64,000 nucleotides of DNA from a virus: positions 184,137 to 248,136 of the IMG/VR virus record IMGVR_UViG_3300040801_004532. One strand, given 5' to 3'. Position 1 is the stretch's first letter, and each line of letters opens with the position of its first letter. The notes under the pieces were generated by a model. It saw only the letters and a list, made by a program, of their open reading frames with translations. It did not search any database and was not told the DNA's origin. Of the stretch, positions 1-40,279 are shown piece after piece. Made by a program: the position numbers and the translations under genes.

Positions 1-617
1 AATTAAAATACAATTCTGTTGAAGAGTCTGAATTTGATAAAAGCTATCTTGAAAATTATCAAAACAAATTGCATCGTTTAGCCGAAACGGCATCTTCTCT
101 CAACATGGAATTAAAAGAGAGCAACGAACTTGCTGAAATCCTTTTGTTCTGGAAAACCGGATTTTCTCCATCTGGTATCCCATCAATGTTGATTGATGAA
201 GCGATTCCTTTTATGAATGAGAAAATTTCAGAATATTTGGATATGATTACAAACGGAAGATATGTTGTTTCATTTGATACATTAGCTGAAACAAAAGCCG
301 GAGAATTTCGTGATAAGATTTCTGTTCATGTTTTAGATACCTTTACAAGGGCAAATTCAAGAACACAACTTTCAGGCGGTCAAACTAGAATTATTGATAT
401 TGCTACAATTTTGACTCTGGCGGATTTAAATTCAATGATTCAAGATGTCAAAATAAACATCATGCTTTTTGATGAAATCTTTGATAGTTTGGATGATGAA
501 AATGTTGGTTATGTTGCAAAAGTTTTAAATAAGTTAAAAATAGGAAAATCAATTTATATTATTTCACACCAACATCAAGATCATTTGGAGGCTGATGAAA
601 CGCTGAGATTTAACTAA
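1..617 (+). CDS. SbcC/gp46-like recombination ATPase, C-terminal part (5' truncated by window)
   Basis: The frame is open from the left edge, so this is only the C-terminal end of a longer protein. It carries the ABC-ATPase signature LSGGQ, followed by a Walker B segment (NIMLFDEIFDSLD) and a switch histidine (IISHQHQD). This order and spacing are those of the C-terminal half of SMC/Rad50/SbcC proteins, including T4 gp46, which works with a gp47 nuclease in recombination-dependent replication and host DNA breakdown. The coiled coil and N-terminal Walker A half must lie upstream. The stop overlaps the next start (TAATG). The exact family member (SbcC, gp46 or another Rad50-like protein) cannot be settled from this fragment. 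Confidence 0.75.
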   Translation, partial: LKYNSVEESEFDKSYLENYQNKLHRLAETASSLNMELKESNELAEILLFWKTGFSPSGIPSMLIDEAIPFMNEKISEYLDMITNGRYVVSFDTLAETKAGEFRDKISVHVLDTFTRANSRTQLSGGQTRIIDIATILTLADLNSMIQDVKINIMLFDEIFDSLDDENVGYVAKVLNKLKIGKSIYIISHQHQDHLEADETLRFN

Positions 618-1000
618 TGAAAATAAAAACAGATTTTGTCACAAATAGTTCATCAACATGCTATATATTTTCATGTAAAAAATATATTCCCAAGGAAGAA
701 TTTGGGTTTAAAAGATTCTTAGCCTTTGATAGCTTTATATGCACAAATAAAAGAGAAGAACTAATTGCATATGCAGATTGTATCCCCGTTAAGAAATGTG
801 ATTGGATAATGTCTGCAATAGGACCATCGAATTTTTATCAACTTTCAGAAAAAGAATTTAGCATGTGTATTGATCTAATAAATGCAGGAAAACACGTAGT
901 TACCGTAAGATTAGATCGTTCACAAGAATATAATATTAACTGTCTTATAGAAAAAATGGAGGAAACAAATTCAGTATTGGTACTCAAGGAGGAACATTGA
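617..1000 (+). CDS. Small protein with conserved N-terminal TDFVTNSSS motif, next to radical SAM enzyme
   Basis: 127 residues, function unknown. The first ten residues (MKIKTDFVTN) followed by SSS are nearly identical to the start of the protein at 39196-39726, although the two proteins are otherwise dissimilar. Both lie directly beside a radical SAM gene: here the stop overlaps the TTG start of the radical SAM gene (TTGA). The rest contains several cysteines and no domain I recognise. From memory, many unrelated bacterial and phage proteins start with a similar TDFVTNSSSSSF stretch; its role is not known to me. A modification-substrate or leader-like role is inference from the paired arrangement only. 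Confidence 0.7.
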   Translation: MKIKTDFVTNSSSTCYIFSCKKYIPKEEFGFKRFLAFDSFICTNKREELIAYADCIPVKKCDWIMSAIGPSNFYQLSEKEFSMCIDLINAGKHVVTVRLDRSQEYNINCLIEKMEETNSVLVLKEEH

Positions 1001-2061
1001 AATCATTAAATACAGCAAAGAGTCCGATAGCAATTGTAAATTGGTTGCTTACAAGAAAATGTAATCTTGAGTGCGACTATTGTGCAATTGTAAAAAATTA
1101 TCCAGACATGCCAAAAAGCTATCCGTTTGTGGGGCATTATTATCAAAATGAAATGTCAACTGAGGTTGTTCTTAAAGCCCTAGAAAAATTTCATAAATAT
1201 AATCCAAATACTTTTCATATCTTTTATGGAGGGGAACCCTTATTAAGAAAAGATTTAGCAACAATAATAAGTTTCTGTAATAACTTGGAGATTCCATATA
1301 CAATAATTAGTAATAACAGCGAAGCTGTGCAGCCTCTAATAGAAAAGCTTTTTGAAGAAGTTGGATTTGTTGAGGGGTTTACAAGCTCTGTTGATCCTAT
1401 TGTCTATACTCAAGAGGATTATGTTGATCCCTCAAGATTACACAAAAGCACTGAAGGATTATCTCGTTTAAAGCATATGAAGAAATGGGCAAATGTTAGG
1501 GACGTGGTTGCTGAAATAACAATTTCACAAGGCATGGAAAATTATTTAATTCCTTTAATTAAAGATTTGAGCGAAAACCAAATTTATAGCGATATTACTT
1601 TCGTTGATATTGCTAAAAATGACTTTTACGATTTTTCAAATGTTAGAGACGAGGAGTTTTTAGTTAAACCAACATTGAAATTAGCAAAGATTTTTCTGGA
1701 GTTACTTGAAAGCGATTATCTAATTCATATGAAAGATCTTCTTCTCCCAGAAATGTTTGATACACTCCCATCAAATTTTGATTGTGATCTTGAAAATCGA
1801 GTCCATAATGTTACAGTTGATGCAGATGGTAGTATGCGCTTATGTCTTAGAATAAAAGGTGAGGTAACTCCAACAATCCATGTTTCAAATTTGTTTGACT
1901 CATCAGGAGCCGTATCAAAAGATTTTTACGATTTAATGTGTGTTGATAAGAGAAGACATTGTGAATTATGCAATCACTCGTGTTTAATGATGAGCAAACA
2001 TATATCCAAAAGACCATCAAAGAAAGATATAATAGATAGTTTATTCCATAGGGAGGACTAA
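997..2061 (+). CDS. Radical SAM protein with C-terminal cysteine cluster (SPASM-like)
   Basis: 354 residues. Cysteines 22, 26 and 29 form the CX3CX2C motif (KCNLECDYC) that binds the 4Fe-4S cluster reducing S-adenosylmethionine. A YGGEPLLR segment follows, matching the GGE motif of the family. The C-terminal third holds further cysteines (around VDADGSMRLC and HCELCNHSC), consistent with a SPASM or twitch auxiliary cluster as in peptide- and protein-modifying radical SAM enzymes. The start is TTG at 997 behind a strong AAGGAGGA site; the ATG-less start overlaps the upstream stop. The adjacent TDFVTNSSS protein is a possible partner. The substrate is unknown. It is not QueE, which uses a different cysteine spacing. 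Confidence 0.85.
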   Translation: MKSLNTAKSPIAIVNWLLTRKCNLECDYCAIVKNYPDMPKSYPFVGHYYQNEMSTEVVLKALEKFHKYNPNTFHIFYGGEPLLRKDLATIISFCNNLEIPYTIISNNSEAVQPLIEKLFEEVGFVEGFTSSVDPIVYTQEDYVDPSRLHKSTEGLSRLKHMKKWANVRDVVAEITISQGMENYLIPLIKDLSENQIYSDITFVDIAKNDFYDFSNVRDEEFLVKPTLKLAKIFLELLESDYLIHMKDLLLPEMFDTLPSNFDCDLENRVHNVTVDADGSMRLCLRIKGEVTPTIHVSNLFDSSGAVSKDFYDLMCVDKRRHCELCNHSCLMMSKHISKRPSKKDIIDSLFHRED

Positions 2062-37119: not shown

Positions 37120-37644
37120 TTAACCAAATTTCATTCTCTTTTTAATTGTTTTAAAGACAGCGTCCCAATTGCCATCTTTAATAAATATCGCTTTATCATC
37201 AATGTAAAAATCAGCAGCCAATTTTTCTGCTGTAACTCGATCAAAATAAATACCGTTTAATTTTAACCAATTCTCAACACTTCTAATTTGATCTATGTGA
37301 TCTCCACCCGTCTCTTTTGCATTTTCTTCTGAAGCCCTTGTTGTAAAGATCACAATTTCATATCCATTATTCTTTAGCCAATCAATCACTTTTTTCGCCC
37401 CTTCAAATGGATCATCATAAATTGTACCATCTTCGTAACCTTTTGAGTACTTATGAATCGTTCCATCTAAATCAATCATCGCTCTTCGACTCATTTGTTC
37501 TACCATAATCCAGTTTTCATTTGGGTAAGCTACCGAGATGACTTGTCTTTTCTTTTTCTTTTTCTTTGTTGGAAACGAATCAATAGCAAAACCACCAACG
37601 GCTTCTGTTCCTTGTAACTTTTCTAGGTATTTTTTTATGTTCAT
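37120..37644 (-). CDS. HAD-family phosphatase
   Basis: 174 residues from ATG 37644, which follows AAGGATAG; the ATG at 37671 lies nearer the TTTAGAACA element and has no ribosome-binding site. The HAD motif I is MIDLDGTI (nucleophile Asp plus acid/base Asp), motif II IVIFTTRAS, and a DFYIDDKAIF corresponds to motif IV with the metal-binding aspartates. The N-terminal part (about 40 residues, Lys-rich KKKKKKR) is an extension. Such phage HAD proteins act on nucleotides or DNA 3' phosphates; the substrate is unknown. It is the first gene of the minus-strand block 29489-37644. Confidence 0.75.
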   Translation of the reverse strand: MNIKKYLEKLQGTEAVGGFAIDSFPTKKKKKKRQVISVAYPNENWIMVEQMSRRAMIDLDGTIHKYSKGYEDGTIYDDPFEGAKKVIDWLKNNGYEIVIFTTRASEENAKETGGDHIDQIRSVENWLKLNGIYFDRVTAEKLAADFYIDDKAIFIKDGNWDAVFKTIKKRMKFG

Positions 37645-37675
37645 TTCTATCCTTATCGGTTGGATACTCATTTTT

Positions 37676-38167: not shown

Positions 38168-39193
38168 ATGGAACAAGCAAGAGAATTGGTAATATTCGAT
38201 AAAATATTTAGAAATGAAAATTATGAACTTTTTTTTAATACCATGTCTGGATTCGAAATTCTTCGTGGTGTAAATGGGAAAGAAGATCCGTTTTGGTTAG
38301 AACTTCCATCTCTATTAGACATTGGAATTATGGGAACCTGCTATCACAATTGTCCATTTTGTTATCAAGGACATATTAAAGAACCAAATATGACTTTTGA
38401 AAATTACAAATGGATAATTAACCAGGTGAAACATCATACAAATCAGGTTGCTCTTGGTGGACGAGGGGACCCAAATAAACATAAGGACTTCAGAAAAATA
38501 GTTGAATATTCCAGGAATAGTGGTGTGGTTCCGAACTATACAACAAGCGGAATCGATCTGACGGATGAAGAAGTGGAGACATCAAAACTATGTGGTGCAA
38601 TAGCCGTGAGTGACTACGAAAAACCCTTTACATACCAAGCCTTAAAAATGTTCATGGATGCAGGTATAAAAACAAATATCCATCAAATTTTCTCATCAGG
38701 AACATTTACAAAATCAATGAAAATAATCTATGGTTATAGTCCATGGCAAAGTCAAAAAAGAGAAAAGGTTGACACTGAAAGATTGAATGCTGTAGTGTTT
38801 CTCCTATTCAAACCTCAAGGAGAAGGAAAAAATATACCAGCATTTATTCCAAGCGAATATCAACTAAAGACATTTTCAGAGATGGTATTAAAAGGCAAAG
38901 CAAAATTCAAAATTGGTATGGATAGTTGTTTGGTTAATCATTTAATAAGATATGCAACTCCAACGGATGGACAAATGATGTCACTTGATACCTGTGAGGG
39001 TGCAAGAATGTCAGCATATATTTCACCTGATTTAAAAATGATGCCTTGCAGCTTTTCAAGAAAAAGCAGTGGAGTACAACTATCAAATAAAAAATCAATA
39101 TCTAATGTATGGGAAAATTCAAGGATTTTCAAATCCTTCAGAAGTAAACTGAAAAGAAAACCGGATAAATGTCCAATAAATTTTGAGGTATAA
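38168..39193 (+). CDS. Radical SAM protein with SPASM-like cysteines, second copy
   Basis: 341 residues. Cysteines 58, 62 and 65 form CX3CX2C (GTCYHNCPFCYQG), and GGRGDPNKHKDF follows with the G-rich SAM loop. The C-terminal third has DSC, DTCEGAR, MPCSFS and a final KCPINF, an arrangement expected of SPASM-like extra Fe-S clusters as in peptide-modifying enzymes. It is not an obvious paralogue of the radical SAM protein at 997-2061 beyond the fold. The TDFVTNSSS protein begins three bases after its stop, mirroring the first locus with order reversed. Start follows AAAGGAG. Substrate unknown. Confidence 0.85.
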   Translation: MEQARELVIFDKIFRNENYELFFNTMSGFEILRGVNGKEDPFWLELPSLLDIGIMGTCYHNCPFCYQGHIKEPNMTFENYKWIINQVKHHTNQVALGGRGDPNKHKDFRKIVEYSRNSGVVPNYTTSGIDLTDEEVETSKLCGAIAVSDYEKPFTYQALKMFMDAGIKTNIHQIFSSGTFTKSMKIIYGYSPWQSQKREKVDTERLNAVVFLLFKPQGEGKNIPAFIPSEYQLKTFSEMVLKGKAKFKIGMDSCLVNHLIRYATPTDGQMMSLDTCEGARMSAYISPDLKMMPCSFSRKSSGVQLSNKKSISNVWENSRIFKSFRSKLKRKPDKCPINFEV

Positions 39194-39195
39194 CC

Positions 39196-39726
39196 ATGAA
39201 GATAAAAACAGACTTTGTAACAAACTCATCTAGTTCATCATTTATAGTTGTTTTTCCTGAAAGGGTAAAATCATTAAACCAAGTAGAAAGATTCATTTCC
39301 CAAGGATATTCAAACACGATATTGAGGGACATAAAAAATCAACAGGCATTAAATGTTAAAAGAAACAGGGAAAAGATAAAAAAACTCTTGATAAAAGAAT
39401 TATGTGATGGAAGTTTAATGGGCAATTATATAGTCCCAGAAAAGGTTGAATATTCTGATTTTCAGAATAAGTTTTGCAAAAGAGAAGGAATTAGCACCAA
39501 AGAATTATATGACAACAAACAATGGTATCACTTATTTCGTGATGAATTTAATCGGGAACAAACAAGGTGGGCAACAGATGCAGCAAACAAGTTTCTTGAA
39601 ACACTTGAAGAAAACTGTTATGTCTATTATTTCCACTATGGAGACGAAGGAGGGGGACTCTACGCACAAATGGAACACGGAGATATCTTCAGAAAGCTCC
39701 CCAATATCAGAATCAGTCACCATTGA
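39196..39726 (+). CDS. TDFVTNSSS-motif protein, second copy, next to radical SAM enzyme
   Basis: 176 residues. Begins MKIKTDFVTNSSSSSFIVV, the first thirteen residues identical to the protein at 617-1000. After that the two differ: this one has a charged helical middle (NREKIKKLLIKELCDG) and a C-terminal region with YYFHYGDEGGGLYAQMEHGD that may bind metal. It starts three bases after the radical SAM stop behind GAGGTATA. A gene in another frame overlaps or follows its end. As at the first locus, its pairing with a radical SAM enzyme suggests a partnership, for example as a modified substrate, which is inference. Confidence 0.75.
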   Translation: MKIKTDFVTNSSSSSFIVVFPERVKSLNQVERFISQGYSNTILRDIKNQQALNVKRNREKIKKLLIKELCDGSLMGNYIVPEKVEYSDFQNKFCKREGISTKELYDNKQWYHLFRDEFNREQTRWATDAANKFLETLEENCYVYYFHYGDEGGGLYAQMEHGDIFRKLPNIRISHH

Positions 39727-39772: not shown

Positions 39773-40279
39773 ATGGTTTATGAGACATATTGTGCAGTTG
39801 AACTCGTTGCTATTCCGCCAAATTTTGACATTAAAAGTCATTTAACTATGCGAGAACAAGCAGGAATATTCGAATATACAAATGTTAGTATTAAACATCT
39901 TGAAGGCATTTCAATGGGCGTACAAAATACACCTGTTTTTACCCTTCTTAATAATCCAAATGTAGCCTTACAATCTATGATATATTTCTTATATATATTA
40001 GATCAATTAGGATTTATTATAAGAGGAATAGGTAGTGGTTTCCATATGGCTATGCATGGTAATTATGAACAATTGTTACGATCATATGAGCGTGCAAGGG
40101 GAACTGTATATATCCAAAATCATAGAGCAGATACTATAAACTTTGCTATAATAAATATGATTCAAATTCTAAATAATGAAACAATTGAAAAAGCTATAAA
40201 AATCGCAGCTTGTGAATATAATGAACAGAAGCTAGCAACCGAAAAAATAGAATCATTACTCCAAACAACAGGAGGATAG
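39773..40279 (+). CDS. Hypothetical protein, start uncertain
   Basis: 168 residues from ATG 39773. The frame is open further upstream, with ATGs at 39620 and 39638 inside the preceding gene, but that part looks like a shadow of the other frame, and none of the starts has a convincing ribosome-binding site. The protein has mixed strands and helices (ETYCAVELVAIPPNF, VFTLLNNPNVALQSMIYFLY) and no recognised domain. It ends three bases before the CreA-like gene. The true 5' end may need mapping. Confidence 0.55.
   Translation: MVYETYCAVELVAIPPNFDIKSHLTMREQAGIFEYTNVSIKHLEGISMGVQNTPVFTLLNNPNVALQSMIYFLYILDQLGFIIRGIGSGFHMAMHGNYEQLLRSYERARGTVYIQNHRADTINFAIINMIQILNNETIEKAIKIAACEYNEQKLATEKIESLLQTTGG

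Follow-up and report, generated by a model that had tools for sequence, protein, structure and literature searches.

A conserved N-terminal TNSSS tag on otherwise unrelated proteins is coupled to an uncatalogued group of radical SAM enzymes in phages, bacteria and archaea

SPASM radical SAM enzymes modify RiPP precursors and sulfatases. In prokaryotic conflict systems, the part of Kaur et al. (2020, PMC7159879) concerned with FtsH ternary systems proposes that a radical SAM gene modifies the peptide effector of a neighboring gene. The STAND architecture, in turn, usually includes a C-terminal sensor half (PMC12931631). Here we describe a pairing between a radical SAM enzyme and proteins that begin with a short conserved sequence, the TNSSS tag. 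The radical SAM group next to this tag is uncatalogued, and no Pfam or NCBIfam model and no open-licence PMC paper was found describing a tag-radical SAM system. A search of the open-licence PMC literature did not find 'DFVTNSSS', and the occurrences of 'TNSSS' were unrelated.

The window, meaning the whole 64,000-nt stretch analyzed here, covers the final 64 kb of an IMG/VR virus record of 248,136 bases and contains two such pairs (Table 1). Reading both ORFs upheld the statement of an earlier note on this DNA that the first 13 residues of the two tagged proteins are identical, and the reversed gene order described there was also found, with the tagged gene preceding the radical SAM gene at locus 1 and following it at locus 2. 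As had been reported, the locus-2 tagged ORF lies directly 3' of its radical SAM gene; the intergenic gap is 2 nt (39194-39195) and a ribosome-site-like GAGG lies about 8 nt upstream of the ORF. The two radical SAM genes do differ: with 16% identity, they belong to clades whose deep separation has 100% support. The C-terminal YFHYGDEGG segment, which had been put forward as a possible functional domain, is real: 44-45 homologues retain D150, E160, H161 and the last residue, H176, and this conservation is confined to the one C-terminal family. The record was found to carry five TNSSS genes and not two (record coordinates 180062, 180410, 180884, 184753 for locus 1 and 223332 for locus 2). The first three, encoding 98-143 aa, lie outside the window, some 4-5 kb before locus 1, beside genes that we presume to be UvsW-like and SbcC/SbcD-like. 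The PHROG families of two window proteins (7397 and 7293) are also present in Straboviridae of the RB43/RB16/KP27 type. Elsewhere in the window, a minus-strand ORF among structural genes (37120-37671) resembles a HAD-type phosphatase.

Table 1. Features of the two TNSSS loci, with position in the window, strand and remarks
Locus 1 TNSSS-tagged protein	617..1000	+	127 aa
Locus 1 radical SAM enzyme, type B	997..2061	+	
Locus 2 radical SAM enzyme, type A	38168..39193	+	341 aa; CYHNCPFC = CX3CX2C at residues 58-65; PHROG 7293, E 7e-25
Locus 2 TNSSS-tagged protein, C-terminal family 1 (phrog_7397)	39196..39726	+	176 aa; AlphaFold pLDDT 91
Locus 2 N-terminal tag MKIKTDFVTNSSSSSF, residues 1-16	39196..39243	+	residues 1-10 predicted flexible
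Locus 2 conserved C-terminal part Y.YGDEGG....MEHG..F..LP.I.ISHH	39619..39723	+	E160 and H176 invariant
Phage cassette gene 3	about 39773..40279	+	start uncertain, ORF open from 39446; no known family

We assessed the breadth of the tag with a degenerate-codon scan in which positions 6-10 were fixed, 11-12 restricted and 13-16 free. Tag-bearing stretches numbered 51 in IMG/VR and at least 118 in cellular genomes, the carriers including Bacillota, Bacteroidota, delta-proteobacteria, Acidobacteria, Omnitrophota, Lokiarchaeota, Thermoplasmatales and Methanosarcina. Among the matches listed from both sources, 256 of 258 distinct tagged proteins share one common register, with the consensus M-K-I/V-R/K-x-D-F-V-T-N-S-S-S-S/T/V-S/C/N-F/Y; positions 13-16 are conserved although the search pattern left them unconstrained. 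Because the reversed strict pattern gave no match in the same genomes, the tag is not a product of chance. Variants were also encountered, namely GFVSNSSS in an RB43-type phage and Vibrio phage D479, GFVTNSSS in Clostridia, and SEVTNSSS, SFVTNSSS and DFTTNSSS in other phages. Past residue 20, the 258 proteins split into 67 BLAST clusters (1e-4), so the tag is their sole common feature; a few of these clusters contain LRR or BRCT domains. PADLOC gave no convincing match for the tagged proteins. At several loci (L010, L023, L052, L095, L164), three to ten TNSSS genes with differing C-termini follow one another in tandem, and these clusters resemble tag-protein cassettes.

A conserved N-terminus could in principle be a DNA or RNA element, such as a translation or recombination signal, that is read as protein by chance, and its location exactly at the start codon of many genes is in keeping with such an element. 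However, the tag codons vary at synonymous sites throughout the 258 proteins, with serine split between AGY and TCN, and many synonymous positions also distinguish the tags of loci 1 and 2 (AGT/TCA for Ser11, GTC/GTA, AAT/AAC, GAT/GAC). The tag is therefore conserved at the protein level, and conservation as a nucleic-acid element, already contradicted by this variation, has a negligible probability.

The coupling between tag and enzyme was then examined from both directions. In tag-first counts, which begin from the motif itself, a radical SAM gene of the group was found in 90 of the 118 cellular stretches listed (80 within 150 nt; same strand in 87/89) and in 40 of 51 viral stretches (29/51 within 150 nt; same strand in 40/40), and in many of the stretches lacking the enzyme the tagged gene lies near the stretch end. 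Searching from the enzyme, 147 Clostridia genomes yielded the radical SAM gene (E<1e-117) in five, one of which was the centre genome picked for its tag, and all five had a tagged protein no more than two genes away; two of the five were missed by the strict pattern and carry GFVTNSSS. Seven of 245 Oscillospirales genomes possessed the enzyme, six of these with the tag at matching loci and the seventh with an internal stop in its radical SAM gene. A match in genome G436 was discarded for a stop in frame. Across these 392 genomes, a few of which are in both samples, every intact radical SAM gene of the group lies near a gene for a tagged protein, and no tag was found without the enzyme. The Coriobacteriia sample added one new positive, its sole new match without a tag being weak (110 bits), while the Bacteroidota sample returned only its own centre genome.

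Among viruses, a tag gene was found within 4-5 kb of the enzyme in 47/80 type-A loci (50/80 with variants) and in 26 to 30 of 53 type-B loci, which leaves 30/80 and 23/53 phage loci, respectively, without one. Reversed controls gave no match at the viral enzyme-first loci, as did four scrambled-motif controls; a further pattern, 'N[TS]SSS', cannot serve as a control since it overlaps with the true motif. In KP27 the tag genes and the radical SAM gene are about 20 kb apart, and in some of the large phage records that encode a type-B enzyme, no convincing tag was found over the entire length. From the cellular co-occurrence and the viral loci without a tag, it follows that the coupling is near-obligate in the sampled cellular genomes and looser in phages. 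The earlier idea that the association is real and was kept twice in one genome is supported: both clades recur beside TNSSS genes in many other phages and the cellular pairing is near-obligate. It needs two corrections, in that not all phages have the two genes side by side and that a third gene belongs to the cassette.

At phage locus 2, this cassette consists of the radical SAM enzyme, the tagged protein and gene 3. Homologues of gene 3, for which no PDB relative was found, follow the type-A enzyme in 63/80 viral loci and were also encountered in 20/30 of the type-A loci without a nearby tag gene. Since gene 3 is kept beside the type-A enzyme even where the tag is missing, it may be another substrate or partner of that enzyme. 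Where no tag gene is close by, the substrate of the type-A enzyme may be gene 3 or a tagged protein encoded farther away, as in KP27.

The same retention of gene 3, the phage enzymes that have no tag gene close to them and the occurrence of tagged genes in tandem arrays would also suit a different account, in which the tag is a signal for targeting, degradation or a chaperone and the radical SAM enzyme makes something else in the same pathway. We regard this as very unlikely, as the uncatalogued radical SAM group is the only partner that accompanies the tag whatever the C-terminal family, phylum or context, and the tag sequence lacks the hydrophobic core or twin arginine typical of export signals.

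We sought to place the enzymes themselves among known families. No Pfam or NCBIfam cut-off was reached that would name the locus-2 tagged protein or its radical SAM enzyme. For the latter, Pfam PF04055 gave 26.7 bits against a cut-off of 29.5 (E 7e-6) and NCBIfam matches were far below their cut-offs; prokaryotic viperin was rejected on this basis (NF038283, 13.6 bits against 180). PF04055 was matched by 38/62 of the radical SAM relatives at E<1e-3. Profile comparison matched the group to the peptide- and protein-modifying SPASM/Twitch enzymes SkfB, SuiB, PqqE, anSME, CteB and YydG; the best solved relatives we take to be SkfB, the SuiB-like 5v1q, PqqE, a GDGT synthase, BtrN and anSME, with YydG weaker. 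The SPASM part of the locus-2 enzyme is shortened, keeping Cys 254, 276, 294 and 335 before the protein ends; this partial, Twitch-like set falls short of the full SPASM cysteines for two auxiliary clusters, which its cellular relatives retain. A tree of 62 tag-adjacent radical SAM enzymes resolved four groups: type B (locus 1, phage), type A (locus 2, phage and a Lokiarchaeal contig), a cellular H group with CX3CX2C-Y-R/K (CX3CX2C in L058), and a mostly clostridial group. Gene order switches four times across this tree, and the two clades at our loci share the same tag. In the mostly clostridial group, CX3CX2C is replaced by CX7CX6C (29 rows, including L074, L087, L130 and L151) or CX5CX3C (2 rows, L038 and L052), motifs that were not named for radical SAM enzymes in the open-licence PMC literature.

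To characterize what these enzymes recognize, we compared adjacent tag-enzyme pairs whose radical SAM proteins are at least 55% identical. Across the 648 comparisons joining different C-terminal clusters, the tags averaged 91% identity and the C-termini 25%, which is about background. In the top cases, radical SAM enzymes 82-96% identical were paired with proteins of unrelated C-termini whose tags were 94-100% identical, so the tag is the only shared feature left to account for specificity. This is the strongest available hint that the tag may be what the enzyme recognizes. AlphaFold gave mean confidences of 91 for the locus-2 protein and 88 for a protein of an unrelated cluster, with residues 1-10 at only 51 and 45 and the fold beginning at residues 13-17; neither modeled fold had a PDB match. 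An invariant sequence within a tail predicted to be flexible implies recognition in trans. We infer with good support that the tag is the recognition site of the radical SAM enzyme and, with less support, that the tail is also the part modified.

Taken as one reading, it is probable that the TNSSS tag is both the recognition and the modification site of the enzyme, in a RiPP-like maturation of folded proteins. The TNSSS N-terminus would then be a portable maturation tag: a dedicated enzyme of the SPASM/Twitch group would bind the flexible tail of its folded partner and modify at least one residue in or beside D/G-F-V-T-N-S-S-S-x-x-F/Y, and the modified tail would serve whichever domain comes after it. 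The change might be a cross-link, an oxidation or an epimerisation. The tag might instead be a leader-like docking peptide only, with the chemistry taking place on the folded domain that follows, perhaps around D150/E160/H161/H176 in the C-terminal part of the locus-2 protein. RiPP leaders act in this manner, and the locus-2 C-terminal family has invariant residues of its own. Yet near-identical enzymes have partners whose C-terminal domains are unrelated and have no residue pattern in common, and the Ser/Thr/Asn-rich invariance of the tag exceeds what docking needs; docking alone is accordingly an unlikely explanation, and we favor modification of the tag itself.

The cellular H-group pairs have a distinct genomic setting. 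A large P-loop gene was found beside 21/35 H-group radical SAM genes, accompanied in 17/35 by a small protein, f4, compared to 0/66 in the other groups. The large protein consists of an N-terminal effector domain followed by a NACHT/nSTAND3 core and matches Avs2 profiles (best E 5e-82); its N-termini are swapped between trypsin-like, TIR-like (weak), DUF4062 and, by Avs2 match, nuclease-type domains. An MBL gene of the operon matches Avs1a and LmuA. TNSSS-radical SAM pairs were observed within Avs2-like STAND NTPase operons at L061, L065, L099, L107, L115, L117, L132 and L172, and also at L083, L090 and L110. Most of the seemingly complete H-group NTPases have 820-935 aa (one has 1,343 aa), compared with 1,375-1,576 positions in the Avs2 profiles, and so the usual C-terminal sensor half may be absent from most of them. 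Profile comparison identified f4 as an untagged paralogue of the tagged protein (probability 96, E 1.8e-9). This setting suggests that the STAND protein may act together with the tagged protein and f4. Further H-group pairs occur near what we assume to be siderophore-type ABC transporters (L058, L103, L105, L123, L128, L129, L149, L174), and nitrogenase-like genes occur near three of these loci (L058, L105, L174), the one at L105 being clearly vanadium-nitrogenase alpha-like. Given such neighbors, defense is not the sole context of H-group pairs.

A broader scheme can be offered tentatively, and we consider it possible but rather doubtful. TNSSS would serve as a general tag at the N-terminus, modified by a dedicated radical SAM group, one clade of which carries the non-canonical CX7CX6C, and would equip effector or sensor proteins in phage-host conflict. 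The bacterial form would be a compact Avs-like STAND operon whose sensor part the tagged protein and f4 perhaps contribute in trans, and the phage tagged proteins and enzymes would be mimics, decoys or counter-defense.

If the maturation reading is true, it would represent a widespread and undescribed protein modification in phages, bacteria and archaea, in which one short tag makes unrelated folded proteins substrates of a radical SAM enzyme. The tag lets many hypothetical proteins be recognized at once and offers an easily fused substrate for enzymology. The link of radical SAM chemistry to STAND/Avs immune operons makes a role in phage-host conflict directly testable.

Several described systems resemble this one in part. 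The window proteins match PHROG 7397 and PHROG 7293, yet both families are listed as of unknown function and are not linked to each other. The SPASM/Twitch peptide maturases (SkfB, SuiB, CteB, PqqE, mycofactocin maturase) similarly possess a radical SAM core with a partial or full SPASM part and are paired with a conserved N-terminal sequence in their RiPP precursors. TNSSS partners, however, are not short precursors but folded proteins, about 100-700 aa in length, whose C-terminal parts are of 67 different kinds; the locus-2 partner (176 aa, pLDDT 91) is no short precursor of leader and core. No Pfam match to an RRE (PqqD-like) domain was found in the 62 radical SAM enzymes, which have only about 50 residues before the barrel. 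Like our group, anSME, one of the solved relatives, is a SPASM radical SAM enzyme whose target is a short motif within a folded protein, but the TNSSS tag lacks the C/S-x-P/A-x-R motif and is placed at the extreme N-terminus, and its partners are not sulfatases (no sulfatase match among 87 tagged partners). The proposed maturation resembles that of RiPPs or sulfatases, but as the RiPP features examined (short precursor, RRE) were not found and the sulfatase motif is absent, we file the system under neither. The FtsH ternary conflict systems likewise combine a radical SAM gene with the effector of a neighboring gene in a prokaryotic conflict setting, whereas they are built around vWA-MoxR/FtsH, and the relevant part of that account (PMC7159879) does not mention a TNSSS tag. 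The Avs (AVAST) systems are approached by the cellular H-group pairs, although no STAND NTPase is found beside phage locus 2. These pairs lie in operons with an Avs2-matching NTPase, swapped effectors and an Avs1a-like MBL gene, and they differ from Avs in that the NTPase is mostly shorter than the Avs2 profiles and is accompanied by f4, a tagged protein and a radical SAM enzyme.
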